64,000 bases of DNA. Source: Selaginella tamariscina. Taxonomy: Eukaryota > Streptophyta > Lycopodiopsida > Selaginellales > Selaginellaceae. Each line of letters starts with the position of its first letter. Within the stretch, counting starts at the first letter, position 1. The stretch spans positions 1 to 64,000 of the forward strand of contig PUQB01000246.1 in NCBI GenBank assembly GCA_003024785.1, in the 5' to 3' direction. The notes under the pieces are model-generated. The model was not told the origin of the DNA, ran no database searches, and worked only from the letters and a program-made list of their open reading frames with translations. Shown here in pieces: positions 18,712 to 57,753 of the stretch. A program made the translations under genes and the position numbers.

Positions 18712-19555
18712 TGCATGTGTGTGCACACACGCTTTATTTTATTATTCATAAAGTTTAGTAAATGTAGAGTATATTATAGAAGATTATTAAATTAACACAC
18801 TAACGGTTTTTTAAATCTAGTCATCTAGATTAAACTGTACTTTTTAATAAATATGCATAATACTTATTTGCATCAATGACAAAATATTAGTATAGCACAC
18901 AGAGACACCCCGTACACAAGAATATGAAAAGTCTCGCTCCGTACCTTTAAGGTTTGTTTCTGTATTAATGATGTAGAGAAATTATCGAATTAACCCTCTA
19001 ATATTATATAATTCTTGTATTGTTCAGGTAATTCTGAAGATGTGTTATACATGCACATATCAATCTTTATGTCTGTTCTATCTAGTGCATTATATAAAAA
19101 TTTATATTTTAAACGAAATATTATATCTATATCTATATCTCTCTCTCTATATATATATGCATCCATATGAAGCAACAGTGAAAGTAAGGAATTAAAAAAA
19201 TAAAAATAAAAGCATCAACAAAATAAAAGTAAAATAAATTAGGAGTAGTCAACACCTTGTTTAGAAGGTGTCAAGGATTGAACCTCTGCAAATTAAAGCT
19301 CTTTGCTAACTCTTTTAATACAATTATACTATAAGATGTTGTATACTGTATATACGCATGTGTATATACACACATGCGTAGTGACACATGGGTGGTGATC
19401 TAGCCCGCATGTGTGCCACATGGTAGAGGGTCTCCTGTATATAAGCAAGGTTTTGTACATAAATAAATCATCACATTCTGTGCATATTTATCTATTCTTT
19501 CATTAGTGGAGAAGTTAGGTATCCCTTTCTTCTGCCTCTTCCTTTTCTTGTTTCC
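18581..19555. other. Short form of the 8,168 insertion and AT-rich flank
   Basis: Bases 18,587-18,840 repeat the two ends of the 8,168-8,550 segment around an (AT)n tract. After this comes AT-rich DNA with (TA)(TC) runs (19,120-19,160) and a degenerate tRNA-like arm at 19,262-19,345 (AGGTGTCAAGGATTGAACCT). A palindromic TATACGCATGTGTATATACA block lies near 19,350-19,378. No gene seen. Confidence 0.5.
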
Positions 19556-20650
19556 ATGATAATGAATATGGAGACGGCTTTTAACATTATTGCTATTACT
19601 ATTGATGTACAAACAAAGTTGTTAGAGCGTTTTGTTGAGGGTTTGTCCTCCTCTTCCCTGCTCGAGCCTCCTGCCGGGGGATCTGTTTTTAGTACTCCTT
19701 CGTCTTCTTCACATGCCACAAATCCAAGGGTTCGACCCGGGGAGATTTAAGCCAGTAGTAATCGGTTGAGGGAATGCCTTAAACGTATGTTTGGCAAAGT
19801 TGAGGATTCAAATGATACTTTTCAGCAACTACATGTGATACGACAACATCCTGGTGAGTCTGTTATGCGGTTCAGTGTTAGATTCGGGGATTTAACTCGG
19901 CATGATTCATTTAGGCTCTTTGACTTACCACATTGGAGGCAGCTTTTGCACTAGCTCAACGATTTGAGTTGGTGCCTGGTGAGGGCAATGGTCCCCTTGG
20001 GTTACTTGCTCCTCCTATTCAGTGTGCTCTGCTGCATATGTGCCCACACGACAAGCCCTTCGTGGTCGACCTCGGGGCCCACCCCATGGACCACCCCCAC
20101 AAAATCATCCTGCTCCAGTTTCTACTTGTGGTAGTCAAATTCACGGATTCGTGACAGGAAGAATCAGAACAATGCAGGTCAACCCAATCAAGTTCATTGT
20201 TGGGCATGTTGGGCACATGGACATACTTGGTGGGCATGTGATGTGTATCTTGATTGGCGTCCACCACATCCGGGCTAGCGACTATATGTTCCGGATGGTG
20301 TGCCTATGGCGGCCATTATGTCTGATGATGAGCTTCCAGATGATGAAGCCTCTCTTGCAGGTGGGTCTGTTGCGGAAAACTAGTAATCGTATGGGCGATG
20401 GAGGGATCCCGTGTGACGGAGACTTCGCCTCCATGTTTTTCCGCTATTCATATCAGGATTGCAAGTTCCACCAGATCATTCAGTTTTCACATTTAATGCA
20501 TGGGTAAATGATTTTTCAGTCACAGTGCTTGTGGATACAGGATCCAGTATGTCTTCCATAACTACTTCTCTGGCGCATCGGTGTACTACCCTTGAGACGT
20601 GCAGATAAGGTCTTGCACATTTTATATGGTAATGGGCAGTCTCGTGCAGT
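19556..20650 (+). pseudogene. Ty3/gypsy gag-protease remnant
   Basis: Three pieces in different frames give gag to protease order. First, RECLKRMFGKVEDSNDTFQQ and PGESVMRFSVRFGDLTRH (19,770-19,905) resemble the retrotransposon gag helix region. Second, HCWACWAHGHTWWAC (about 20,195-20,240) fits a C-x2-C-x3-GH-x4-C zinc knuckle. Third, FSVTVLVDTGSSMSSITTSL (about 20,510-20,570) carries the D-T-G-S aspartic-protease motif. No reverse transcriptase follows; the sequence leaves coding-like composition at about 20,650. Frame changes and stops make it non-functional. The region is clearly more GC-rich than its flanks, fitting a late insertion. Confidence 0.75.
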
Positions 20651-22440
20651 ATCATATTATGGGTGTCAACTTATCAAATTATAATAACAAACTCTAAATG
20701 TAATGAGAAACAACTCTACTTAGTGCACTTTAAGTGTATAATACAATACATATATTATATATGTTATGTTAGAGTTTTTAACCCAAAGGGCCAACACGTG
20801 GCTGTCAAGTGGCCATTCGGCGTCATCACCTTGTGTGAGCAACGCTAAGTCTTCTAAGATAACCCTAAGAGTCTAATTCAGGGCCCAATTAGGCAAAAGA
20901 CTTAGTCCTACCCTAAGTCCCTAGAATGACCATCCCCTGAACCCTAGAGGATAACCCAAGTAGACTTTAGGATCCTGTCCCAGTAGACCTAGACAGACTC
21001 ATGCCCTAACCCCACAAAGGAGATGTGTCTCACACATACCCTGTGACACATCGTCACTTACCCCTTAAGGAATCACCCTCATCCGAGAGTACAACCCTTT
21101 ACGGCAACAAGGGGTACCCTGAACCACGACTAACCCCTAAGGATTTAGGTGGCCAAGTCATACCCTAGACCTAGGGCTAGTATTTAGTGAGGACATGAGT
21201 GTGCGCCGTAGGCGGACACGAGTGTTCTACTACTAAGGCTAGGTTTGAAAAACCCTAAGTACATGACCTTGCGAGTGCTTCTCGAAAAGGCTCTCGCTAA
21301 CAAGCTTAGGTTGTTCAACCCCTGGATTCTAAGGAGGACACTCCCCTAGCCAAGTGTGCCTAAGCACACCTGGTTACGAGACCTAACCTCCCTTGAGTAA
21401 ATGCCCAAGGCTTAGCACCCTAGCGCGAGCACAAGCATGCACCCCTTGGCGACAAGCCCATGACATAACCCCAAAGGGCGTGTCTCGAACATTGTACCAT
21501 GTGACGTTTAGCCCAGTCTCACATCTCCATGTGACACTGCCTTCCCGATGTGGGCTATCATGCCATAGCCCTTAAATTCAAGAGATGCACCAAGTGCCAC
21601 AAACATGGCTCCTAAATGCCAACTCTAGAACCCTTAATGAACCCTCAGGAACTGGTAATGTGAACCTGTCAAACAAGATCTCACACCCACAGTTGGTCAA
21701 GGACACGGATGTGCCTTGCTTGGCCATGAGTGCTACACCTAGCTTGATGTGGAGGAAGAGGCTGGAGACAAGCCTCAACCTCTGCCTCTTGGAACGTGCA
21801 TCCCGACAAGACCTCCCAGGCATGGATTCGCCAACATTAAGGGTAAGCTACCCCGAAGGTGGGACGTACCCCTTCATCTGGAAGTTAGGGCAACACAACA
21901 AAGGGTTGTGCCTTGACGACACAAGCTAAAGCTTGCACCAGGAGAAGAGTAATGAGTTCATCATGAACCCAAGAACCCTCACTCTTACATACTCTACCTT
22001 ATTATGTGACGGAGCCCCCCCCCCCCCCCACCCTCTTTTTAGTGGGCTGGCACGAAATGCCAGCCCTTAGTTAATGAGATGAGTTTGCACACTAACCCCT
22101 ACCCTAAACCCTACCCAAGGGGGTGGGGGTTTTAGGGCGTGGGTTAGGGCAACCCTAGGGTTATCAACCCTAGGGGTGTTCCTAACCCTATTTAACATGC
22201 CAAATCATTTAATAGGACGTCAAAATCGAGGGTGGGTTTTCTAAAGGTAAGTGCTACCTTCGCTTAGAGTTCTCGCGACATCTAAAGATAGCTGGTCGGA
22301 CTACCCCTAAACACTTAAGTGCACTAAGCAGGGTTGTTTCTCATTACATCTAAGGTTTGTCAACATAATACAGTAAGTAACAACAATTAACTTCCAAAGT
22401 AAAGGGTCAAGTCATAGTAAAAACTATAACATGTTATATA
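20651..22440. other. GC-richer block of unknown nature
   Basis: Composition shifts sharply to about half GC, rich in CCCTAA/AACCCTAG-type words. Open frames (such as 21,585-21,929 plus) look like composition effects and match no family known to me. Notable structures are a C tract at 22,016-22,030, a perfect 9-bp hairpin GGGCTGGCA/TGCCAGCCC at 22,044-22,066 with a CGAAA loop, and AACCCTAGGGTTATCAACCC near 22,150. It might be the LTR or untranslated end of the preceding Ty3/gypsy element, but I found no second copy to prove that. Confidence 0.35.
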
Positions 22441-27190: not shown

Positions 27191-27580
27191 ATAAATTAAG
27201 ATAGTATTGTAAGATCCACGTGTACTGCTGCATGTGCACATATTATCATTAACATAGTGGGTTTTAATAGCCGTTGGATTGGTTTCCAATCTAGACCACT
27301 CACTCTTGTATATAAATGCACATTGTAACTAAAGTGGGCATGATACGTGAAAATGGGAATATAAAATAAATTACTAATTAATACTTAAGTTTTATTAATT
27401 AATCATTTAATTAATATATAATTAAGCCTTAAATATTAATTAATTAATTAATTAATCCTTCAATAACCTTACTTAGTAAGGAATATTCCTAAACTATCTT
27501 AGAATATTCATATTATTCTAAAAATAGTTTACAATAATGAAGAAATACTATCAAACATAATTAAAATGAAATCATTTCCT
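27191..27580. other. Unassigned flank, possible LTR or promoter
   Basis: Begins TGTAAGATCCACGTGTACTG and contains GTATATAAATGCACATTGT (27,309-27,327), a TATA-like box. Then comes TTAATTAA-rich sequence. It lies 3' of the minus-strand genes. It could be a solo LTR fragment; no second copy is visible. Confidence 0.3.
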
Positions 27581-27582
27581 TA

Positions 27583-27798
27583 TCAACATGTTAATTTATT
27601 TATAAATACTTTCTTCCTAACCATATAGAGAAATCTCCTCATTTTGTCTAAATCATCACTCTCCAGATTAATCAAATCATTTTGGTCAATATCTTGATGT
27701 TGTTGCCACCACCTAACACTCTCACGAATGCAATTGGGAGTTGCCATCCTTGTTAATACATAAGATGTAATAAGACTAGGTTTTGCATAAAGGCTCAT
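27583..27798 (-). CDS. Small unrecognised ORF
   Basis: A 71-codon frame directly downstream of the HAD phosphatase gene, same strand, separated by 17 nt. The peptide (contains RESVRWWQQHQDIDQ and KMRRFLYMVRKKV) is balanced in composition and looks protein-like. It could be a 3' exon of the phosphatase gene, since an acceptor-like TTTTTTAG precedes its ATG, or the end of another gene. I recognise no family. Confidence 0.25.
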   Translation of the reverse strand: MSLYAKPSLITSYVLTRMATPNCIRESVRWWQQHQDIDQNDLINLESDDLDKMRRFLYMVRKKVFINKLTC

Positions 27799-27815
27799 CT
27801 AAAAAATGACGTTCC

Positions 27816-28740
27816 TTAAGAATTATTATAAAGCGCCCGATTGCTATCCTTCATTTTATAAAATTCAAAATCACGAGAAAGAAAAGCTTCAGGAAATGTA
27901 TGATACGGTGGATACTGCTCACAAAAATTTTCGAGATTCTTCTTTCTGAGGCACGTATCCAAGTAGTTCACTAGCTCATCCATGATATCGGTATCAGAAT
28001 ATGGATCGAAAGTGATTGGATGAATACAAGCAATGTTTTGGTTGAGCATAGCCTTCTGAGGAGAGTCGTCTACTACTAAGATATGTGCATTCTTCATTAT
28101 CCTTAAGCGACTGATCTCCCCATGAGTCCCAATTATTCTTTCATTCTTGAAGAAGTATGGCTTGCTTTCCTTTCTTATATTGTGAAATTCGAGAGGTTTA
28201 TAACACATTCGCTGGTCAAAAATCCAATCTTTACGAATCACCTCTTCTGCAACACTACAATGTTTCTTAAGTAAATTCAACAGCGGTGTTAAGTTATGAA
28301 TCTGCATGCATGACCAAATCCCCACAAGCGCACCCATCTCCTTAAGCTTTTGAAAGAGACGATCCAACCCTGGACGAAAAATAATATCATATCGAAATTT
28401 ACCATGACAAGGAATGAAATCTCCTTGTTTGATTTCTTTTTTCCTATCCTCGGGCCTTTGTCGATGAAGCAGAACACCATTGACATCCAACAACACAATA
28501 TGGCCATGAGTAACATGAGATAGCGTTGCCTCTTGAATACTTTGCAAATCACTTGTTTGCTCCCTTTCACATTTATCCGTTGCCACTACTCGTTGCCTAT
28601 CCCTTCATCATTTAATTGTACATCATCCTTACAAGATTCAGATATTGCATGCGCTGAAGAAATTGATTTCGGAACTGAAGCCAATAAAAATGATGATGAA
28701 AAACTGAAGTGGCCCCCATGGTAACGATGTTTTGAGCTGC
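27816..28740 (-). CDS. FCP1-like HAD phosphatase domain protein
   Basis: The main frame (27,816-28,586, about 256 codons) has the order expected of an FCP1/SCP/TIM50-type HAD domain. Motif I reads HIVLLDVNGVLLHR, followed by FRPGLDRLFQKLKEMG, GIWSCMQ (motif II region), KDWIFDQRMC, and motif III ILVVDDSPQKA, then FDPYSDTD and a C-terminal helix. Family members dephosphorylate serine/threonine residues, classically in the RNA polymerase II tail. Here motif I is D-V-N-G-V instead of D-x-D-x-T/V, so the second catalytic aspartate is Asn and activity is doubtful; D-L-N-G-V variants are known in plant members. There is no in-frame ATG before motif I. A protein-like N-terminal segment (PKSISSAHAISESCKDD, to about 28,740) lies one frame off, so one indel or a splice joins them. 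Its place beside a transposon-like gene suggests it may be cargo of that element. Confidence 0.7.
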
Positions 28741-28986
28741 ATTATTATCCATTTCCTGCATGAACTCTGTCATTCTGACATGTGGCACAAGAAATTGTCG
28801 CCAACCCCTGTGCAAAATGATAATTAGCTGACCTTAAAATTATCAAGGTATATTATTTACCTTGTTAATGTGTGACCCATGTTTGAACTAAAACTTCATT
28901 AATCCTTGAGAATTTATTTCTGTACAAATATAAACGAAATATACAAAAATGCCTTATGTTACACTCATTTACAACTATTCGTCACT

Positions 28987-31900
28987 CTAACAATTCATTA
29001 ACAATTCTTCTTCGCTATTACCTTTTGAGTGAGGCGAAGAAGGTCTAAGCCGCTTGTGAGATGGTTCAAGATCTTCTGCATCTTCTATTGATGTTTCCAT
29101 GGGTAAATGGAGTGTGCAAATGTTCTGTACTCCTCGAGATAACTTCCGGTCTAATATCTGATTGAAGTTCGTCCTCAGACTCCGACATTGAACCAGATTC
29201 GTCTTCAGAGCTATCGCACTTATCTGGAGGGAACTTTCTCAAATACTCCTTTATGGATTCGTTGGGGTAGTCAGTTGAGAACCTATCTATCCACTTGTTC
29301 AGGTCCTCAACCATGGTCTTATCCTTTTCAACGGCAAACACATGTATGCCGAAGGTAACACTCCTTCAAGACGGACCCCCTAGTGCAGTAGTCAAAAACC
29401 CACGCATCACTGTGAGGACCCCTGATCAAGTTGACGATGCTCCGTGCCGCTTGACTTGTGATGTTTGGATAACGTACATTGCCGAATACGTCACTCTCAC
29501 CTATCGGTGTATCGGATGGAGGTTCAGGGCCGTTGGAGTGCAAACAGATGCCTGGCCAGTCATTTGGAAGTTTGAAACTGTTTGGCGCATTCCTAACAAC
29601 CAAGTGAACAACCGAATCAATGCACTTCGGATCAGCATCATTCATATAAAATCCTGTCCAACGATGTTTATTCCTCTTGGCAAAGGAGAAGGCAAAGGTA
29701 TCGGTGACATGAGCAAGAATCAAGAAATAAATACCTGAAAACGTAGATATCAGTCAAGAGTGCAAGTATGAATTCAATAATAAATACCTTCTTTGTACAT
29801 GCTTGCACGGCTAAGTTTCTCCACCAAATCCTCTAGTGTCCTGTCTGTCGAAGGATTTTTTGACACCCGCCGATCCATCACGAACAATTGAAACGGTTTC
29901 CTACAAGCAGTGATGGTACCCCATAAAGTCTCCGAATCCAACAACAAACATCTGTAGGGCTTGTCGTGATTCGTAGCATCCTCCTTTATAAGGTTCAACT
30001 CGGTTCTCCGCTGCTGAAGGACTGCCATAAGAGAAGGCGTCATCGCAATGTTCTCCTTTTTGGCGTTGGCGTGCAATAGATTCTTGCCCAGATCTTCCGA
30101 TTGATTCACCCATTCGACAAGCATATCATCATTTGTCACATGCAAATATTTGCTGACCTCTTCGTATGTTGAAGCCGAAATCCAACCCAGTTTGTGGCAG
30201 TGTATTCCCAACCACTCCTTGAAGTGCCTGACCGTCTTCAACTCCATTGCCTTGAGATGAAAAGGAGAGGTGGGCTGCTGTTGTTAATCTGTAATTTGCC
30301 ATCAATCACCAAATCAGCCAAGACTTCCATCTCCTCCATCGTTGTTCCATTTAAAGGCTTCAACCATGTGAGCTTGAAATCGTTGTCTACATCCTTTATA
30401 GATTGAACAGACTTAGCCTTCGGCGTCTTACTGGGTTTCTTTGCAGACTTCTCTGAGGGCTCCACTTCACTTGTCTGCTTCTTCTTCAGTGTTCCTTTTG
30501 CAAAGGATTCCATAATCCCCAACCATTTGGCAAAGATCCTATCCTCGGGACAAGAAATCAACATCATCAAAAAGGATGTTTCCTTCCCGCCCACCTGGGC
30601 AAAATCAACTGCTACAATTTCTTCAACTCTCTGAGAAAAAAGACAGATTAATATACCGGCGAGATAAATCCCGCCCAAACAATTTGCTTACCCGGTAGTC
30701 CGCAGATTGTGTATTCCCTGCGGTAGCTCTTTGTGGTCGCTGAAGAGATTCCCACACGGCTCGCGTGTGTTTGAACTTCTCCCATATTTTGCTGTTGTAG
30801 TGGTTGGTGTCTGCAGCGTCCCATTCCGCCGATAACTTATGGTACTGCTCGATTGTGAGATTCGGCTTCGCTAAAAACGCCGATCTTTTTGTCAGCTTCT
30901 CACGGGTATGCTCGGAAAGTTTTGTTGCCATCGTTCCTTTGTTGTGTTCGTCGAGAAGTCGTTGGGCTGCCGTTATTGTGTGCTGGCCACTAATGATGTA
31001 GTACTTAACTGATTTTCTATTCTCCGTCTGAACCTTCCTCATTTGTTCGGTGTTGTGATCCACACTTTGTCAGCGCCTTTGTTCTTTCGTAGTATGCGCA
31101 CAAAACAGCATTATGTGGAACGGTGTAAGAATTGTCGTCCTTCATCTTCTCCATGAGCTCAGCTACACGTTCCTGATTGAGTGGCCTGTAATTGAAGTTT
31201 GGGTTGACGCTGCAATACTTAACCCTACACTGGTAAATCCTATCATCCAACATCATTTCCTTGTGGCTTATTGCAGCATGGGACGCCACAGGTGCAGCTG
31301 ACAAAACGACTAATGATTTTCTTTTACGATCCGAATCAACATGTGTGATCCCCGATTGATGTTCTAATGTTCTCGGCACACTCTTCCAGCTCCCGAAATT
31401 TGCTAAGCAAATTGAACGTGATCTGTAAAGAACCTGAGACCAAGCCACCCTCTCAATCTCCTTTATGATGTCGTGTGTTCTTCTTCAATGTGAAGAGGGA
31501 CGATTGCTCCACTTGTGATTTTCTGTATTGTGAAGCAATATCTCCTGACAATACACCTACTCGATGAGTCTGAAGATCTTCGAAGTAGACATCCAGATGG
31601 ATCCCCTCCATAGATGGGCTTTCGTTGAGTTGAAGAAGAACTCCAGGTCAACATCATTAGTGAACACGTGAACGTCATTATCCACAAGTCGACAAAACCA
31701 CCCGAAATTAATGTTGTAACTGGCGACCTCTGGATCCGAGAACGTGACATTGGATGGAACAAGGCATATGTGTCGAGCATCGTTCAATCTGGGTTCACAG
31801 CATGCTTTCGGATGCTTGACTAGCACACCCACTTTCCATTGTTTTGCTTGTCCATGCGATGTGACAGAGGTTAGTTTGACAGCAACCATGGTTGTTCCAA

Positions 31901-32089
31901 TGCGCTTCCCGTTTAGTTTGAAATATGGCCAAGTTGATTCCAGAATCCCCCTGCCCATCTCTTCTCCTGCTCTCGTCTTTAATGTCACCTCAATTCCACA
32001 TCTGAATACAAAAATGATTAGTTCAAGCACATATCCGAGTATAACAGATTTTATTTTAATTCTTACCCAGAATTTGACGACGACTCCAT
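28987..32089 (-). CDS. ParB-like domain / DNA methyltransferase-like protein
   Basis: A large minus-strand gene pieced together from several frames with three short GT-AG introns (32,002-32,066; 30,631-30,691; 29,735-29,787). The likely start is the ATG at 32,089 (MESSSNSG), though GDRVIS lies in frame upstream. Order: an N-terminal domain; a ParB/sulfiredoxin-like domain (31,200-30,945) with YRPLNQERVAELMEKM and YYIISGQHTITAAQRL, the latter matching the ParB G-E/Q-R/H-R..A motif; a helical segment and a Lys-rich linker; then a methyltransferase-like part. In that part YRCLLLDSETLWGTIT (29,950-29,900) sits where D/N-P-P-Y/W is expected, RTLEDLVEKLSRAS plus an Ile/Phe-rich strand follow, and SDAWVFDYCTRGSVLKE with VFAVEKD (29,408-29,310) resembles SAM motif I. 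This is the beta-class order (IV before I) seen in phage and plasmid ParB-methylase fusions. The tail is acidic then basic (HKRLRPSSPHSK). At least four single-base frame corrections are needed. The ParB call is fairly firm; the methyltransferase call is an inference with degenerate motifs. Confidence 0.6.
30658..30675. repeat. Palindrome unit inside an intron
   Basis: GGCGAGATAAATCCCGCC lies within the 61-nt intron 30,631-30,691 of the ParB-like gene. It matches the unit of the 32.4-33.6 kb array at 16 of 18 positions, about 1.8 kb from the array. Confidence 0.75.
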
Positions 32090-32430
32090 ACTAATGACTC
32101 GATCTCCTTGTTTAATTAAATCGTCCTTCTGCAAAATAATACACTATGAATACAAATCATATAAAAACGCACACACACTTGTATAAACCCGAATATACAA
32201 AAATAATACACAGAGAGAAGTAGACGGAATTAACTGTCCAAAGCTCACCTTTGTGCTAGTGCAAAAGAAAGATAACATTTCGTTTTAGAACCACCACAAA
32301 TGTGAGCTCTGGACAGTTTTACATAGTTTCCTAGCTTTTACTCGAAATATTATGATAAGATGATAAAAGTAAATAAAATGAGATATGCAACTTATATATA
32401 CTAATACACATATATATTCACATGGAAGGT
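32090..32430. promoter_or_regulatory. 5' region of the ParB-like gene with 24-bp inverted repeat
   Basis: AACTGTCCAAAGCTCACCTT at 32,232 continues to 32,255 and is repeated inverted at 32,295-32,318 (22 of 24 positions pair) around a 39-nt loop. It sits about 150 bp upstream of the presumed start of the ParB-like gene and just before the palindrome array. It could be an untranslated-region hairpin, a protein-binding site or a fossil terminal repeat. Confidence 0.5.
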
Positions 32431-33556
32431 GCGGCGGGATTAATCTCGCCACCCCTTCAATGCCTCCTGAAAGAGTGGGCGGGATTAATCTCGCCACCTT
32501 TCTGGAGGCCTTGAACGGGAGTGCGGAATTAATCTTGCCACCCTTCTCGGTCTCAGAGAGAACTGGGCAGGATTTATTTGGCACACCCCTTCAGTGACTC
32601 CAGAAAGGAGGCGGGATTAATCTCGCCCACCATGTAAGGGATGGTTAAATGAATTTCCCCACCCTTCCCAGTTCTCTCCATTGGTATGTTGTAAACCTTC
32701 TACGTCTCAGACAGAAACGTTTGGGATTGGTCCGACTCACCAATGGAGAAAAAAAGGAAGGGTGGCGGGATTCATTCCTCCAACAGGCATTGAAGGCTCG
32801 GCGGGATTAATCCGCCGCCCAGGGCCTTCACTCGGTCCCTATGCGGCGGGATTAATCCCGCCGGACGCCAATTCCCTGCTCAAATCGGGCGGGATTAATC
32901 CGCCGCCTAGGCCCTTTAGGCAGGCCTTTGGCGGGGGATTAATCCCGCCCGATTCCGCGCAGGGCAGCGGGATTAATCCCGCCGCCCGGCCCTTCACTTG
33001 GGCCTAGGCGGCGGGATTAATCCCGCCGCCTAGGCCCTTAGGCAGGCCAATGGCGGGATTAATCCCACCCGATTCTGCGCAGGGCATGCGCAGCGGGATT
33101 AATCCCGCTGCCCAGGCCCTTCACTCGGCCTTAGTCAGCGGGATTAATCCCGCCGCCTAGGCCCTTCAGGCAGGCCAATGGCGGCGGGATAAATCCCGAA
33201 CGATTCCGCGTAGGGCATGCGTACGCGGCGGGATTAATTTCGCCGCCTAAGCCCTTCACTCGGGCCTTAGTTGGCGGGATTAATCCCACCGGACGCCAAT
33301 GCCCTGTGCGGAATCCGGCGGGATTAATCTCGCCGCCTAGGCCCTTCAGGTAGGCCAATGGCGGCGGAATAAATCCCGCTCGATTCCGCACAGGGCATGC
33401 GTAGGCGGAGGGATTAATCTTGCCGCCCAGGCCCTTCACTCGGGCCTGAAATGGCGGCAAGATTAATCCCGCCGCCGAGTGGCTAATTATATAGCGGCGG
33501 GATTAATCCTGCCGCTACACACGTCTCACCATATAGCGGCGGATTAATCCCGCTGC
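32431..33556. repeat. Tandem array of about 25 palindromes
   Basis: A GC-rich array in AT-rich surroundings. The unit is a near-perfect palindrome, consensus GGCGGGATTAATCCCGCC, centred on ATTAAT. I count about 25 copies, diverged at the left edge (32,431-32,780) and close to consensus in the middle. From 33,007 onward spacing is 38-48 bp, mostly about 44 (starts near 33,007, 33,052, 33,090, 33,136, 33,180, 33,226, 33,274, 33,318). Spacers rotate among a few types: CCCTTCACTCGGGCCTTA, CCCTTCAGGCAGGCCAATGG, GATTCCGCGCAGGGCATGCG, and GGACGCCAATGCCCTG. Several spacers are themselves hairpin-forming, and some are reverse complements of one another. Frames through the array encode only periodic peptides (GLGGEINPA), which I do not regard as a gene. 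Confidence 0.9.
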
Positions 33557-33955
33557 TACACACACACACACACAGATATATATATGTATATGTGTGTGTA
33601 GGAGAGTGCGTGTGTGTGCCAGAATAGTCAAATCAGATAAAATTATACAGATACACACACCACTATATGTATATGTATATACGCGTGTGTGTGCGAGAGA
33701 TAGATAAATAAATAAAATTATACAGATACTGGTACACATAATATATGTATGTATACATAGGTAATATATATATATATATGTGTGTGTATATGTATATCGT
33801 GTGTATGCGTGTGTGAAACAAAAAAATCATACAGATAAACAAACACACACACACACATATATATCAGGAGTGTGGTGTGTGTGCGAGAGATACAATTAAC
33901 AAATCAATAAAATTATACAGATACACACACACACATATATATAGATAAATAAATA

Positions 33956-33999
<44 letters not shown>

Positions 34000-34198
34000 T
34001 GTGTGGTGTGTATATGTATATATAATCTGTGTGTGTATATGTATACGAGTGTGCGTGTGTGTGCGAGAGATAGAGATCTATATAGAAGAGAGAGAGAGAA
34101 GAAGGATATATATATATATATATATCTGTGTGTGTATGTGTATACGAGTGTGCGTGTGTGTGCAAGAGATAGAGATCTATAGAGAAGAGAGAGAGAGA

Positions 34199-34240
<42 letters not shown>

Positions 34241-34440
34241 TGTGTATATATGTATACGAGTGTGCGTGTGTGTGCGAGAGATAAAGATCTAAATTATATT
34301 ATTAAGATACACACACATATATATAATGTGAATAAAAATAAATAAATATCACAAATAAACACAGAGGAGTGTGCGTGTGAGAGAGAGAGATCTCACCTGT
34401 GTGAGAGAGAGAAGGAGATTTCGCCGCCGCCGCCTTACAA
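33557..34440. repeat. Compound microsatellite
   Basis: Long (TG/CA)n, (TA)n and (GA)n tracts. Within them a composite unit containing GAGTGTGCGTGTGTGTGC plus GAGATAGAGATCTAT recurs at about 34,046, 34,145 and 34,256, and weaker copies occur back to 33,600. Non-coding. Confidence 0.85.
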
Positions 34441-35400
34441 ACCCTAGGAATATACTTAAACCCTAAAAGGAATAGAATATATATTAACCCTAATCGAATA
34501 TTCCTTCTAAGAAATACTTAAATCCTAAAAAGAATAAACTATAGATTCGCCCTAAATGAATATTCTTTCATTTATTATTAGCGTGTGCGTGTGTGTGGTG
34601 TATCACATACACCCCAAGAATAAATATTATGCAAGGGTTTAACACGTGTGTGTCCATGAGAGTGTTAAAGTTCACATGCAGAGATACATATATACACACA
34701 TAGTATTATACACATAGACATACATACATATTAGTATATTAATATTAGAGAGACAGAGTACAGGATCATGTATGGTGTGTATGTATGAGAGAGAGTGACA
34801 ATACATATTATGGATCATGCATGGTGTGTATGTTTGAGAGAAAGAGAGACAGTACATATTTACATAGAATCATGCATGGTGTGTATGTATGAGAGAAGAG
34901 TGAGAGTGTTAACAAATTAAATTCATACACATTGGATATTAGTACACACATATACATACACACGTGTATACACACAGACATACATACATATTAACATGTG
35001 TAATTCAATGTAGGGTTTAGGGTTTAAGGTTAGGATGGATCATGCATGGTTTATGTATGAGAGGAGTGAGTGTTATACACAGATATACATTATACATATA
35101 CATATTGTAACATCAGTACATATTATGGATCATGCATGGTGTGTATGTATGAGAGAAGAGACAGGCTACATATATATGGATCATGATCATGCATGGTGTG
35201 TATGTAATGAGAGAAGGGATTATGCATGGTGACACTGTGTATGTATGAGAGAAAGAGATAGAGTGTTAACAAATGAAAATCGTACACATTACTATATTAT
35301 ATTAGTACACATATATACATACACACGTATATTACACACAGACATACATATATAATTACATGTGTAAATTCAATGTGTTACATACACACACACTGAGTAC
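34441..35400. repeat. Minisatellite with GATCATGCATGGTGTGTATG unit
   Basis: The motif GATCATGCATGGTGTGTATG followed by TATGAGAGA recurs near 34,767, 34,812, 34,868, 35,037, 35,129, 35,184 and 35,219 with irregular spacing. A separate block of about 110 bp starting GTTAACAAAT is repeated directly at 34,905-35,012 and 35,264-35,372. AAACCCTAG-type words appear at 34,439 and 35,013. No coding. Confidence 0.75.
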
Positions 35401-36540
35401 ATATAGATCCATAATGCGTTGAACATAATGTTTTTCAATAAAGAAGCAACATATAATTTCTCAAGTTGGTTTAGGGCAATGTGCATGTGTGGCATATGTG
35501 TCTCTGTAAGTGCTTCTAATGCGTGTGCACATGTATATATAAATTTAATTGTTGTTTATATATAATATGTGCAAAACAAACATTAAATAATTAAGAAAAT
35601 AATATTATAATACACACTATGAACATATTTTAATTATACATAATATATTGATTTTATCTAATATATAGCCATATATAGTTTTAATAATATATTAATTTAA
35701 AATTGAATAAGGTTTAACACTAGATATTCTAGAAATAATAACAAATTAATTGAGAAAATCCCATTAATATATACAAATGTAGAATAATTACTGAGATAAT
35801 TAAGAATAAGACTAATTTAATTATGATAATCATGTTTAATACTGGAATATTCTTTGAATATTAAGAAAATAACAAAGAATATCCCATTAATAGTAGGAAA
35901 TGTAAATTAATTACTCGAGTAATATAAGAAAATAATAATAAAAAACAGACTATGAATATATTTTAAATGATACATAATATATATCAATTTATTATTGTAT
36001 TAGTGTATATATATATATAATATAACTTAATAATATATACTTGAATATTAAGAATGTAGAATAATTATAAAAATTTCGTAATATTAACAGCTTGAAGCAC
36101 TTGAATGACATTAAATGTAATTTTAAAGCACTCATTGGAATAGAGAGTATATATGTCAGACTGTCGGTTATGTTTAAACTCATCTTAATTTTCTTTTCTG
36201 TTATTTTTAAAATTTTTAAATTTCTGACATAAGTATTATCAGTCTGACATGTAAATTTAAAAATACATTTAATTTTCCACTCAAATTCAGATCTGGTTCT
36301 TTCTCCGGCAAGGGTTCTTCATTTTCACTCTTCAGATTTTCTTTTTCTTCTTAGTGATCAGCTCAGGAACGACATTAAATTGGGTGCGCTATTGTTTATA
36401 GAAAGCACGGGCGCCTTCAGTGCTGTTTACAAGTATTATAAACAAATTTAGATATATTTATAAAGATTCACTCTCTTACATTCTATCTTAAATTTTAGAA
36501 TTTAGGGATTTAGGAATGCATTAGGATTACAATATATTCT
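35401..36540. other. AT-rich spacer
   Basis: A segment around CTAGAAATAATAACAAATTAA is partly repeated (35,640-35,780 and 35,830-35,990: both have GAATATTCT, then CCCATTAATA, then AATTACT). From 36,290 the sequence becomes less AT-rich (TTCTTTCTCCGGCAAGGG), possibly the 5' untranslated region of the rightward gene. No ORF of note. Confidence 0.4.
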
Positions 36541-36717
36541 GTTAGGGATTTATCCCGTTTAAATATACTTTTAACTTAGTATTCTCGTTAGCCGGGGGGC
36601 AGGATTAATCCGGCCATTTTTTTTCGCCTCTTTGAAGAGGTGGCGGGATTAATCCCGCCATCATCTCTTTCATAACTATGGCAGAATTAGTTCGGCAATG
36701 CTTCTCCGCCTTTAAAA
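36541..36717. repeat. Second palindrome cluster
   Basis: Four units of the same palindrome family: AGGGATTTATCCCG (36,544-36,557), GGCAGGATTAATCCGGCC (36,598-36,615), TGGCGGGATTAATCCCGCCA (36,641-36,660, perfect) and TGGCAGAATTAGTTCGGCA (36,679-36,697). Spacing is 38-54 bp. The cluster runs into the assembly gap, so the true array is probably longer. Confidence 0.85.
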
Positions 36718-37396
36718 NNNNNNNNNNNNNNNNNNNNNNNNNNNNNNNNNNNNNNNNNNNNNNNNNNNNNNNNNNNNNNNNNNNNNNNNNNNNNNNNNNN
36801 NNNNNNNNNNNNNNNNNNNNNNNNNNNNNNNNNNNNNNNNNNNNNNNNNNNNNNNNNNNNNNNNNNNNNNNNNNNNNNNNNNNNNNNNNNNNNNNNNNNN
36901 NNNNNNNNNNNNNNNNNNNNNNNNNNNNNNNNNNNNNNNNNNNNNNNNNNNNNNNNNNNNNNNNNNNNNNNNNNNNNNNNNNNNNNNNNNNNNNNNNNNN
37001 NNNNNNNNNNNNNNNNNNNNNNNNNNNNNNNNNNNNNNNNNNNNNNNNNNNNNNNNNNNNNNNNNNNNNNNNNNNNNNNNNNNNNNNNNNNNNNNNNNNN
37101 NNNNNNNNNNNNNNNNNNNNNNNNNNNNNNNNNNNNNNNNNNNNNNNNNNNNNNNNNNNNNNNNNNNNNNNNNNNNNNNNNNNNNNNNNNNNNNNNNNNN
37201 NNNNNNNNNNNNNNNNNNNNNNNNNNNNNNNNNNNNNNNNNNNNNNNNNNNNNNNNNNNNNNNNNNNNNNNNNNNNNNNNNNNNNNNNNNNNNNNNNNNN
37301 NNNNNNNNNNNNNNNNNNNNNNNNNNNNNNNNNNNNNNNNNNNNNNNNNNNNNNNNNNNNNNNNNNNNNNNNNNNNNNNNNNNNNNNNNNNNNNNN
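36718..37396. other. Assembly gap
   Basis: 679 undetermined bases. The gap opens within the palindrome cluster, so unresolved repeats are the likely cause. It also hides the 5' end of the rightward DUF7869-type gene. Confidence 0.99.
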
Positions 37397-37450
37397 TGAT
37401 TTCTTAGAAATATTGCATAAATAGATATCATAAATAACACAATTATTTAT

Positions 37451-40370
37451 GTGCAGGACAATATGTATAATACTGGAGATAAAGTATGTCTTCTTCGGAA
37501 CAACAAGATAGTTGGCACTGGAACTGTGGAAGTTCGAGATGATAATGCATCATGTCACAATATTGCCCAAGGATCTTGTGTGTATGTATGGGTGAACACC
37601 ATTTTCAAGCATGTTGAGGTTCCTGGAATGGAATTTGAGGAGGGTTCTCATGTATTGTGGAATTTGGATGAAGTCAAGGCTGACACAGAATATACAGAGT
37701 TACAAACAAACAGTAGCACAAGTTTTCCAGATGATGGCTTGCCTGTTGTGATGGATGAGGTGATTCTCTTTCTTCATGAGATTGAGGTTGGGAGAGGCAT
37801 TCATCACAGTTATAAATCCAATAGAAGCAGTGTCAGAAGAGAAACTAGGGTCCGACTTCGTGGGTGTAGTTGTGACAGAGGTTTCACCTAATGGCACTTT
37901 GCATCCTGAATCCCTCGTGAAGTGGCGAACATCTGAATTAAGACGGCAAGATGGTTCAATATATTTTGGGTTGAATTCAATAATAACAACTGGCCTCATT
38001 GTAAAAAAAAGGCGATTCATGGGTTGCAGATCTTCCCCTGCATGTTTCAGCAAGAGGGTGAAGATGGATCCTACATCTTCCGAAAGTGTTATGAGCATTT
38101 CCACGTGTGACTACTGCAAGAAGAAGTGTTGTCAGATGGCAGACCAGAATGAAATTACCCAATGTAGACATGTCTTTCGTACGCTCACCCAAAAGCAAAG
38201 GCATGAGTTTGTATATGCTGCACTAACTGGGTATTGATGGAATGGCCTCGGACACAGGTTATCAGAGTACATCCATGGTATTTAATAAGGTGGCCATCTG
38301 CTTTAAAGCTTAGTACAATATATATGGAATCCCAAAGACCACGTTCTACCGTCGGAGGGATGAGTGGTTAGATGGAGCACGAACCTCAGTAATGGGAACA
38401 CTGGCTTGGTCAAAACCCGCTCTCACATTATAGCAGCCATAGAGATACTCAAGGCTTTTGTGGAAGCAATTGCAGACAGGATGCCTCACAAATGCCGAAC
38501 CACAATGCAGGGGTCAGGGAAAATCTCAAGGTTTTGCCTCGATCTACACTCAATTGAAGCTGTGTGAACATGTGAACAAGTGCCTCAGCTTGATGGGGTT
38601 GCAAGCAATCTGCACTAGTACTTCAACAACATATGGAATATTCATTTTAAGAATGTGGAGATTGCAAAACACTCTAGCTTTTCCAAGTGGACACTTGTAC
38701 ATCATTAAAGGCTGCAGAGGCTTGTGCAAAAACCTTGGTGGAGATCACTGCCATTCAAAAGAAGATGGAGGCCCACATGATTGCACAACAACTTGCGGTC
38801 TCAGTACTATGCACACCGCATGCTTTCTGTGTCACGCCCATCAGAGTACCTGTGCTTGATCCATGACAAGATGGATCATTCAAAGACCAGCATTCCAAAG
38901 CTCGTTGCAACACCAAAGTGCCTTAGAAAATGTCATGAAACTTCCGATTTCATTGACATGTGTGCTAACACATGGACACGGTTGTGAATCATATGGACAC
39001 TTTTCACTTCCACATTGGTCTAGCGACTCCAATTTCACTATTGGGTCATTGGCCATGTGTTTCAGAAACCTTAAAGCTCACTCATAGACAAGTCTTATCA
39101 GTGATCTCAAAGTGAAGAAACAACACCTTCAACCTTTACATAATGCTCTCATGAACACGTTTGCACTTGAGGTACTTGGGAATATGAGAGGCATTGTCAG
39201 CAACCTGCACAAAAAACAGATGGCCCTGTTGAGAATTCAGGTTCAGTGGAGGGATCTAGCTCAAATAGTGTACATGTGTCCTCAATATCAAATAAGCTTC
39301 CTCGTCATTTGCTTTTACAAATGAATAATTTTACTTAAGGGTTTCTCAAGCTCATACTTACTTTTGTTTTCTAGATATGTGCTACATACTTGTCAATGCT
39401 TGTTGCCAAAGGTGTGTTTAAAACAATCACGCTCAGTTTTCTTATGGTTGGTCACACTCATGAAGATATTGATGCGTTCTTCAGCAAGGTCTCCAACTCT
39501 ACAAAAAGGACAAGTGCACTTACCTTACCGCATATGATGAATCTTTTTGAAAATTGCATCTCCAAAAAAAGTTGTGCTTTGCTTGTGACTGAGGTGCCAG
39601 ACTTCAAAAAATTTCTCAAGGAGTATATAAAAGAGGGGAGTGATTCTTAGTGGTCACCTTGTGCCGCTACAATTTTTTTTCTCCATACGAGATGGTATAC
39701 CTATTATGTAGTACATGTTACAGCTATCAGAGCAGGAGTGGTTACGAAAGAGGGGTTAATGCTCTTCAAAAGTGGAGAGAATGGAAAGCCACTTCTCCCA
39801 GAAGGACAACCAGAACCCTATTCCATTGAGTGCCCAGCTCAAGGAACAAGAGGTTATTATTGATGGCATCAAAAAATATGTGGCATGGGTTCAAAAATCG
39901 ATGCCAAAGAATTTGATAGGCAACTGGTTACTCAGAACTATATAAGCATGTGGTCGACTATTGGGAGACTGTTGTTCGAGGCCTACTGTCACAAGTAAAA
40001 ATTGCAACACCCTTTTTGGCCTAAAACAAGGTGGCGAGAGGAGATTGAAATGACATCACTGAGGCACAGATGACATAGAAGCCAGTAGTGATGTGGAAGT
40101 GCAAACCCCACACTTTGTTGGACAAAGGAACCAAAAACCTAAAGCATACTTTGATTGCTGCCAAGATCTTCAAAAAACTAATGATGGTTCTCATTACTCC
40201 AGATGCGTCATATAATCAGCCTATTTGGGATCAAATTATCGACACACCTGAAGTAATTACAAAAATAGTATTATTAAGGTTGCATGGTTCAAACCACAAA
40301 AAAGGCGACACGAGAAGGAGAGCGAAAGATATAATGGATGCCTAGAGAAAACATAGTCTCCCAATCAAAA
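37451..40370 (+). pseudogene. DUF7869-type transposase-like gene, degenerate
   Basis: Follows a splice-acceptor-like TTATTTATGTGCAG at 37,443-37,456. The first frame (NTGDKVCLLRNNKIVGTGTV, to about 37,790) looks like a small beta-rich domain. It continues after a frame change with VVVTEVSPNGTLHPESLVKW and a Cys-rich CDYCKKKCCQM motif (38,109-38,141). Further pieces in shifting frames keep the order of DUF7869 proteins: YGIPKTTFYRRRDEW (38,328-38,373), AAIEILKAFVEAIADRMP (38,433-38,486), IHDKMDHSKTSIPKL (38,858-38,903), VLTHGHGCESYG (38,962-38,997), LPRHLLLQMNN (39,296-39,330) and the hallmark FLMVGHTHEDIDAFFSKVS (39,440-39,495). DUF7869 proteins are widespread in transposon-rich genomes and probably have an RNase-H-like fold, but their mechanism is not established as far as I know. 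The LLLQMNN site has Asn-Asn where Asp-Asn is usual. Many frame breaks and stops indicate a dead copy. Confidence 0.7.
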
Positions 40371-41240
40371 AGACCCAACATGTTTTATAAATGTTAAATC
40401 TATTCGATATGGTGGATGTCAAGAAGTGTTGATAAAAGTCACGATTAACAAAACTGCAAGGGAATGTATGTTTTCTGAAGCTTAAAGCAATTACAAAATT
40501 ATAAAATCATATTTATTTAATATTATAATTATAAACTCTTTAATAATAATACCAAATTGTTTACTTAACTATATAAATTAAAAAACGATATGGAAGATTG
40601 ACTAATTATTATAAGATTGTATATTATATATATATTATTACTACTACAAATTTTTAATTAATAATGTTATATTTAATATTAATATTTTAATACAACATCA
40701 ATATTTATATAATGTACCTCTTATGCTCTTCCTTAATTGTTATATTAGACAATATATTATATAATTTAATACCTTCTACTTTATATAATATTATTAATTT
40801 TTGTTCAATGAATGCTATAATTTATTAAAGGGTCGAATACAAAATAGAATATTCTAAAGAATATTCTATTTTCAAACATATATTTTAAAGAATATTCTTT
40901 AATATTAGAAAATGCTAATTAAATAGCTAAAATTGCTAATTATTAGGAAATGGGACTATAGCCATGCCCATTTTAGTTACAACTTGCATAAAAAGTGTGT
41001 TTTGATGAAATAAAATGTTCTATTCTTTAACAATATATGAAATTTTACCTCCTATAAAAGCTAATTTATATACTTAATAAATATGCACTATCTCATAATA
41101 TATAAACCATATTTTCCAGCACATAATCTGTACATACGCATCATATATATAATAACATTAATATACAGTCTATCGTTTTATAATGTCATGCAATAATGCA
41201 CGTTCTCTCACTCTCTCTCTCTCAACACAACACACGCACG
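40371..41240. other. AT-rich intergenic DNA
   Basis: No gene. An inverted repeat TAAAGAATATTCTATTTTCA near 40,855 has several AATATTCT words around it. A CT/CA microsatellite (CTCTCTCTCAACACAACACA) lies near 41,210-41,250. Confidence 0.5.

Positions 41241-56084: not shown

Positions 56085-57753
<1,669 letters not shown>

Follow-up and report, generated by a model that had tools for sequence, protein, structure and literature searches.

Palindrome arrays upstream of two divergent genes in an amplified DNA transposon of Selaginella tamariscina: candidate binding sites for an element-encoded protein

What does an array of short palindromes do beside a gene with a ParB-like motif in the genome of a land plant? 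The question is raised by 64,000 nucleotides of Selaginella tamariscina (contig PUQB01000246.1, positions 1 to 64,000; this whole stretch is called the window), for which an earlier note, made from the sequence alone, had proposed a partition or silencing system in a mobile-element setting. The gene and its palindromes belong to a DNA transposon that has been amplified recently and massively in this plant, to more than 1,000 copies, and in the reading towards which we lean, an element-encoded protein binds the palindromes and thereby controls or un-silences both of the element's promoters. The features are collected in Table 1.

The repeated sequence, GGCGGGATTAATCCCGCC, is a perfect 18-bp dyad. 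Between 27316 and 36717, 26 sites match it at no more than 4 mismatches when 0.05 are expected (mean over 20 first-order Markov shuffles), which rules out chance or low complexity as their origin and bears out the array of about 25 copies that the earlier note had seen next to the leftward gene. Array 1 holds 23 of the sites, one (at 30658) lies in the gene's own intron, also as noted earlier, and two belong to array 2, where four had been counted at 36.54-36.70 kb: those at 36598 and 36642 are good, whereas 6 mismatches make the ones at 36542 and 36680 weak. Array 2 extends further in other copies fetched from the genome (17 sites in L009; also L012-L016 and L019). For the core GGATTAATCC, with one mismatch allowed, the window has 22 matches where 2.5 would be expected. 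Genome-wide there are 27,128 exact 18-mers and 0 copies of a control, the pattern read backwards, which is also a palindrome and of equal composition. A comparison of 316 sites, taken from 11 fetched loci and the window, sets the 18 bp apart from the flanking bases (a contrast inflated by the choice of sites on similarity) and gives 44-45 bp as the commonest spacing. Three 10-kb pieces taken by position alone (L020-L022) contain no site at 5 mismatches or fewer.

That the setting is a mobile element, as had been proposed, is clear from its ends. Homology of other copies breaks off within about 10 bases of 27316 and 40989, and the ends are inverted repeats, ATGCA(C/A)GTTGTAACTAAA(A/G)TGGGCATG, of which variants occur. 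Target duplications are 4 bp long: TTAT for the copy in L014 (flanks L057/L056) and ATAA for the copy in L016 (flanks L058/L059); AGAT is read from L010 and L011, which hold the left and right ends of copies at the same place of a Gypsy element. The flanking 4-mers of the window copy agree at 3 of 4 bases; no target duplication is readable in the L018/L055 copy, whose left end deviates. The gene-bearing parts of nine fetched copies (L009-L016, L018/L019) are about 85-97 per cent identical to the window element, and L017 is a degraded copy (about 77-87 per cent). The right-end 27-mer of the window, at 40956, has 1,216 exact copies in the 300.7-Mb genome and a 28-mer from the ParB-like gene has 1,557; in a list of the first 100 of these 28-mers, 48 are accompanied, 9.5-11.8 kb away and on their own strand, by an exact right end, and 48 of the first 75 of 100 listed right ends are paired with a 28-mer in that way. 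The ParB core of 30 fetched loci comes in 15 distinct versions, the commonest present in 7, 5, 4 and 3 loci, which points to recent amplification.

Two observations concern the surroundings of copies. The L016 copy is seemingly inserted in an older relative of the ParB-like gene, 69-79 per cent identical (L058:516-572, L059:1003-1200), which hints at several waves of the element. A Gypsy-like retrotransposon fragment lies in the window at 19332-22431 and is also found in L053, L010 and L011; in the last two the element has an identical insertion point within a Gypsy copy and is bordered by AGAT on both sides.

The palindromes and the ParB-like gene travel together, an association that the earlier note had asked to have checked in other copies. 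The ParB-like protein was used to fetch 30 loci, and in 27 of them at least five sites (3 mismatches or fewer) lie upstream of the gene, the other three being not judgeable (L038 stops at the start of its contig, L050 has N there, and L036, by eye, has a foreign insert in the gene); the intron palindrome is at the same place in 29 of the 30. On contig C1, counting the part covered by the first 100 listed palindrome places, exact ParB 28-mers lie 1,539-1,722 bp from an exact palindrome in 7 of 7 cases (p about 3e-11 for random placement). The listed palindromes form 11 clusters there, seven with an exact 28-mer; for the others, L017 is a degraded gene copy, L011 and L012 are right halves of the element and L018 has spacer-like similarity only. 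Arrays apart from the gene family, which the earlier note would have counted as a refutation, were looked for on C1, and 10 of the 11 listed clusters fall in whole, half or degraded element copies. The sites are so far specific to this element family, as checked on C1 and at one locus of a second family (family B, see below).

Where the sites stand relative to the genes was checked in seven sequences (the window, L009, L012, L014, L015, L016 and L019). The nearest one is 336-344 bp upstream of the ParB-like start codon in all six sequences that hold the gene, and 153-155 bp before the start codon of the second gene, which encodes a DUF7869 protein, in five copies (5 of 5 usable; in the window an N gap puts this distance at 804 bp, and in L019 the start string was not found). 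Distances so nearly fixed before both start codons indicate that each divergent gene has its own upstream array. The arrays have little else in common: outer-flank identity between array 1 and array 2 is 0.265 (shuffled 0.249), against 0.293 and 0.389 within them (116 and 87 sites from six loci). Given that the spacers are unrelated and the 18 bp the same, it is the palindrome, not a repeat unit, that was kept. Across 26 close copies, variation is lower inside sites (0.024) than between them (0.041, p 0.0005). Transitions in the 316 sites, which are not independent of one another, number 79 at the CHG position, 41 and 25 at the two CG positions and 23 at CHH, an excess of C-to-T type changes at CHG that plant CHG methylation of the arrays could leave.

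Two genes diverge from the central region, the ParB-like one leftward and the DUF7869 one rightward. We hypothesize that a dimeric element-encoded protein, as a palindromic site suggests, would bind the palindromes, and this would most likely be the ParB-like one. It would load on the arrays of all copies and, once bound, keep both promoters active or shield them from silencing. We infer that the ParB-like protein acts on the observed sites in this way, as an activator or anti-silencer; the DUF7869 protein ranks second as a candidate binder and a host factor third. A more specific version, which we offer only tentatively, is that a palindrome reader derived from a ParB/methyltransferase loads in trans, spreads or recruits, and un-silences both promoters, which would make it a prokaryote-derived counterpart of VANC.

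TnpA of En/Spm, an element protein that counters methylation, has numerous short binding sites close to its promoter; those sites are subterminal and 12 bp long, whereas here they are internal and 18 bp, and the only match is a weak one to PF03017 in the DUF7869 protein. VANC proteins are not ParB-like and the VANDAL elements that encode them are Mutator-like. In the parts of the literature consulted, VANC of Arabidopsis VANDAL elements binds short motifs in tandem arrays upstream and in introns of its own genes (PMC5735166), and in VANDAL21 (Hiun) the element's protein, acting on its own noncoding arrays, removes silencing (PMC5735166, PMC10398659). The likeness is close in arrangement: an element-specific short motif in dense tandem arrays, upstream and intronic, within the family that encodes the protein; the near-fixed distances before both genes and the intron site match this layout. 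In contrast to the 18-bp palindrome, the VANC21 motif is 9 bp long, not palindromic and in one orientation (PMC5735166).

The best-surviving alternative, to which we give a small though real weight, is that the element multiplied host transcription-factor sites (E2F, K50 homeodomain) for expression in dividing cells. There is a resemblance between the half-sites GGCGGGA / TCCCGCC and the E2F core, and between TAATCC and the core of K50 homeodomain sites; the arrays are just upstream of both genes, each palindrome carries the TCCCGCC core on both strands, and E2F sites have reportedly been amplified by transposons in Brassica. However, the canonical plant E2F site has TT before CCCGCC, where AT is found here, and a perfect 18-bp dyad exceeds the need of an E2F site.

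The palindromes might also be bound by the DUF7869 protein itself, which is likely the transposase. The domain (PF25273) is recognised at E 1.2e-27 in copy L016 and 1e-26 in L012; viral contigs gave no DUF7869 match, no mention of DUF7869 was found in the open-licence literature of PubMed Central, and GGGATTAATCCC turned up there only for an unrelated protein. The two element proteins share an N-terminal segment (score 58, z 6.6, 0 of 500 shuffles; amino acids 22-58 of the ParB-like gene of L039, EMGRGILES.., and 108-144 of the DUF7869 gene, EVGRGIITA..), and in the DUF7869 protein this segment resembles PF03017 (TNP1/EN/SPM) weakly (E 0.054, short of the curated cut-off). Binding to repeated sites is common among transposases, as with the subterminal repeats of other DNA transposons, and the start of the DUF7869 gene adjoins array 2; together with the shared segment and the PF03017 resemblance, these points speak for the transposase as binder. 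Against this, the arrays lie well inside the element, with about 3.6 and 5.1 kb between them and its ends, so that terminal or subterminal repeats are out, and the intron site is kept as well. We consider transposase sites unlikely, a shade more so than host sites.

As for the protein that we rank first, its gene reads RPLNQERVAELMEKM ... ISGQHTITAAQRL on the strand opposite to the candidate transposase gene, inside a DNA transposon. The window copy has several frame breaks; the ParB-like part is open in many other copies, with a stop in 9 of 149 scored matches, these being the best of 5,458 first-look candidates and hence biased towards intact copies. Between subfamilies the ParB-like exon is under purifying selection (pN/pS 0.14-0.17 in 5 of 6 pairs, 0.37 in one). 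True ParB proteins have the CTP-binding motif GxRR; GQHT stands in its place in 28 of 30 copies, those whose frame reads past that point, and two stop just before. The C-terminal part has a motif order like that of beta-class DNA methyltransferases, at motif level only. Its DPPY position is DSETLW if judged by distance (the FDYC motif follows 163 residues later, against 145 in family B), or RNAP if placed by alignment of this family (family A) with family B; its glycine loop, CTRGS, is degenerate, PF01555 (N6/N4 methyltransferase) has no match in the window family, and Pfam is silent on this part. Judged by these motifs, the C-terminal part probably was or is a methyltransferase, and one that looks degenerate. 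The ParB-like protein found no match among 5.8 billion proteins. A tblastn search of phages gave no hit, and a PDB sequence search nothing relevant, with one chain at E 0.77.

Several results weigh against our reading. The ParB signature described in the earlier note does read as described, but profiles do not recover it: Pfam, NCBIfam and PHROGs scans of the window protein family recognise no ParB domain, and PF02195 finds no match in the whole genome at E 0.001, a search in which 10 of 14 control genomes match. Since the motif is good by eye and the profiles fail, we use the name ParB-like for the motif level only and do not class the protein as ParB. The N-terminal segment common to both element proteins means that either or both could bind. 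Family B, which also encodes a ParB-like protein with a methyltransferase, has no palindrome site at 5 mismatches or fewer in 9 kb at L054, so the arrays are no rule for the ParB-methyltransferase class and the palindrome is out as its general companion. Identity of the 18 bp to the consensus, 0.915 in array 1 (22 of 88 exact) and 0.950 in array 2 (30 of 73 exact; five loci), is inflated because sites were picked at 4 mismatches or fewer. Finally, the sites (0.024) are not less variable than the segment that separates array from start codon (0.027, p 0.54, 26 copies, L050 dropped as it reads N there), nor are they with L050 kept (0.062 versus 0.056, 4 of 30 loci lacking the start-codon string being omitted); the array test thus shows constraint relative to spacers only.

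This last result suits a functionless minisatellite hitch-hiking with a successful element, and tandem copies do expand and homogenise unaided. Yet the arrays, with their unrelated spacers, have only the 18 bp in common, the spacers vary more than the sites, and 29 of 30 loci retain a solitary copy in the intron, which makes the explanation improbable. A true ParB-parS system in partition or spreading is barely credible: palindromes are clustered beside a gene with a ParB-like motif, as in bacteria, but PF02195 fails, GxRR is absent, no ParA-type model matches among the scanned ORFs (open reading frames) of the element, and the copies are dispersed in eukaryotic chromosomes. More than a thousand such copies need no partition, and we reject that half of the earlier proposal; regulation or anti-silencing of promoters fits the anatomy better.

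Sola elements have 4-bp target duplications, a trait shared here, where the candidate transposase is DUF7869. In the part of PMC12477816 consulted, Sola1-1_Ec32 of Ectocarpus carries a ParB-methyltransferase accessory gene opposite the transposase, its product is proposed to bind and modify its own transposon, and green and red algal cases are cited; the section on the ParB-methyltransferase names no target for this self-binding, and 'palindrom' occurs 0 times in the main text. Both are large DNA transposons with such a gene opposite a (candidate) transposase, ParB-like with, in Ectocarpus, an N4C/N6A methyltransferase prediction. There are a number of differences: (i), the host is a land plant; (ii), the element has genes for DUF7869 and for an FCP1-like protein and shows candidate target arrays; (iii), the methyltransferase motifs look degenerate. 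The likeness is one of description. Sola1 of Physcomitrella is listed in the part consulted of PMC9033089. For ParB with plant or algal transposons, only PMC12477816 was relevant in open-licence PubMed Central, judged by the listings, and PMC12695648, on adenine methylation, is without 'ParB'. Going by these partial sources, the class of ParB-methyltransferase genes in transposons is already known, and the palindrome arrays, the land-plant host and the scale appear to be new.

Family B is a second amplified ParB-like/methyltransferase family of the genome (295 matches, 1,407 candidates). Its methyltransferase matches PF01555 at E 6.6e-6 (at the cut-off) and phrog_67 at E 4.1e-8 and has the motif DPPT; its first domain is DndB-like at E 0.0024, below that model's curated cut-off. 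Families A and B have no significant similarity in the ParB part (z 1.5, with 10 per cent of shuffles scoring as well); the C-terminal parts reach z 2.7 (0.7 per cent of shuffles), which rests on a 16-residue match, and hhalign gives a probability of 1.4 per cent. Three compared family-B loci on C1 have their closest listed exact palindrome 74,019, 21,239 and 3,261 bp away, the shortest distance being that of L010, which abuts the 13.7-kb element. Family B found no match among 5.8 billion proteins, nor did its methyltransferase in viral contigs. Genome-wide, PF01555 gives 739 candidates and 150 scored matches above the cut-off. Many of these matches have an open frame of 106 aa and apparently form another repeated family; to our knowledge, this abundance is unusual for a plant.

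Table 1. Features of the element and of family B; positions are those of the window unless a locus is named.
Feature	Position	Strand	Remarks
DNA transposon, 13.7 kb	27316..40989	.	ends ATGCACATTGTAACTAAAG... / ...ATTTTAGTTACAACTTGCAT; flanks ATAA and AAAA
FCP1/NIF-like phosphatase ORF	27816..28604	-	PF03031 E 2e-12
ParB-like gene, broken in window copy	28987..32089	-	introns ~32002-32066, ~30631-30692, ~29736-29787
Single palindrome in intron 2 of ParB-like gene	30658..30675	.	
Array 1, 23 palindromes	32433..33554	.	mostly 40-46 bp apart; upstream of ParB-like gene
Central spacer, microsatellite-rich	33555..36541	.	separates two divergent promoters
Array 2	36542..37396	.	mostly hidden by N run 36718-37396
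DUF7869 gene, candidate transposase, broken in window copy	37463..40490	+	end approximate
Family B loci	L054:1700-5141; L010:638-3790		canonical-looking motifs DPPT, DGNHRR, PF01555

The FCP1/NIF-like ORF recurs in the L018 copy (E 3.1e-10) and in L010; it reads DVNGV at the place of DxDxT, the motif usual in such phosphatases. Elsewhere the window contains pieces of a cytochrome P450 gene (47442-48932, forward strand; PF00067, E 6.5e-19 and 3.4e-37) and a DUF1749 fragment (56274-56645, reverse strand; E 2.5e-10), and a PPR gene (E 7.7e-69) lies in a fetched piece of the same genome.

If the palindromes are indeed read by a protein of the element, the transposon would carry a self-recognition code, an 18-bp site in tens of thousands of copies, and with it a built-in switch for its own activity. 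They offer a candidate target site for the self-binding proposed for algal ParB-methyltransferase transposons, and the idea of self-recognition becomes directly testable. The apparent richness of the genome in N4/N6-methyltransferase repeats is relevant to the question of a role for such marks in land plants. Un-silencing by a ParB-like protein would, if true, be a second origin of sequence-specific anti-silencing in plants.

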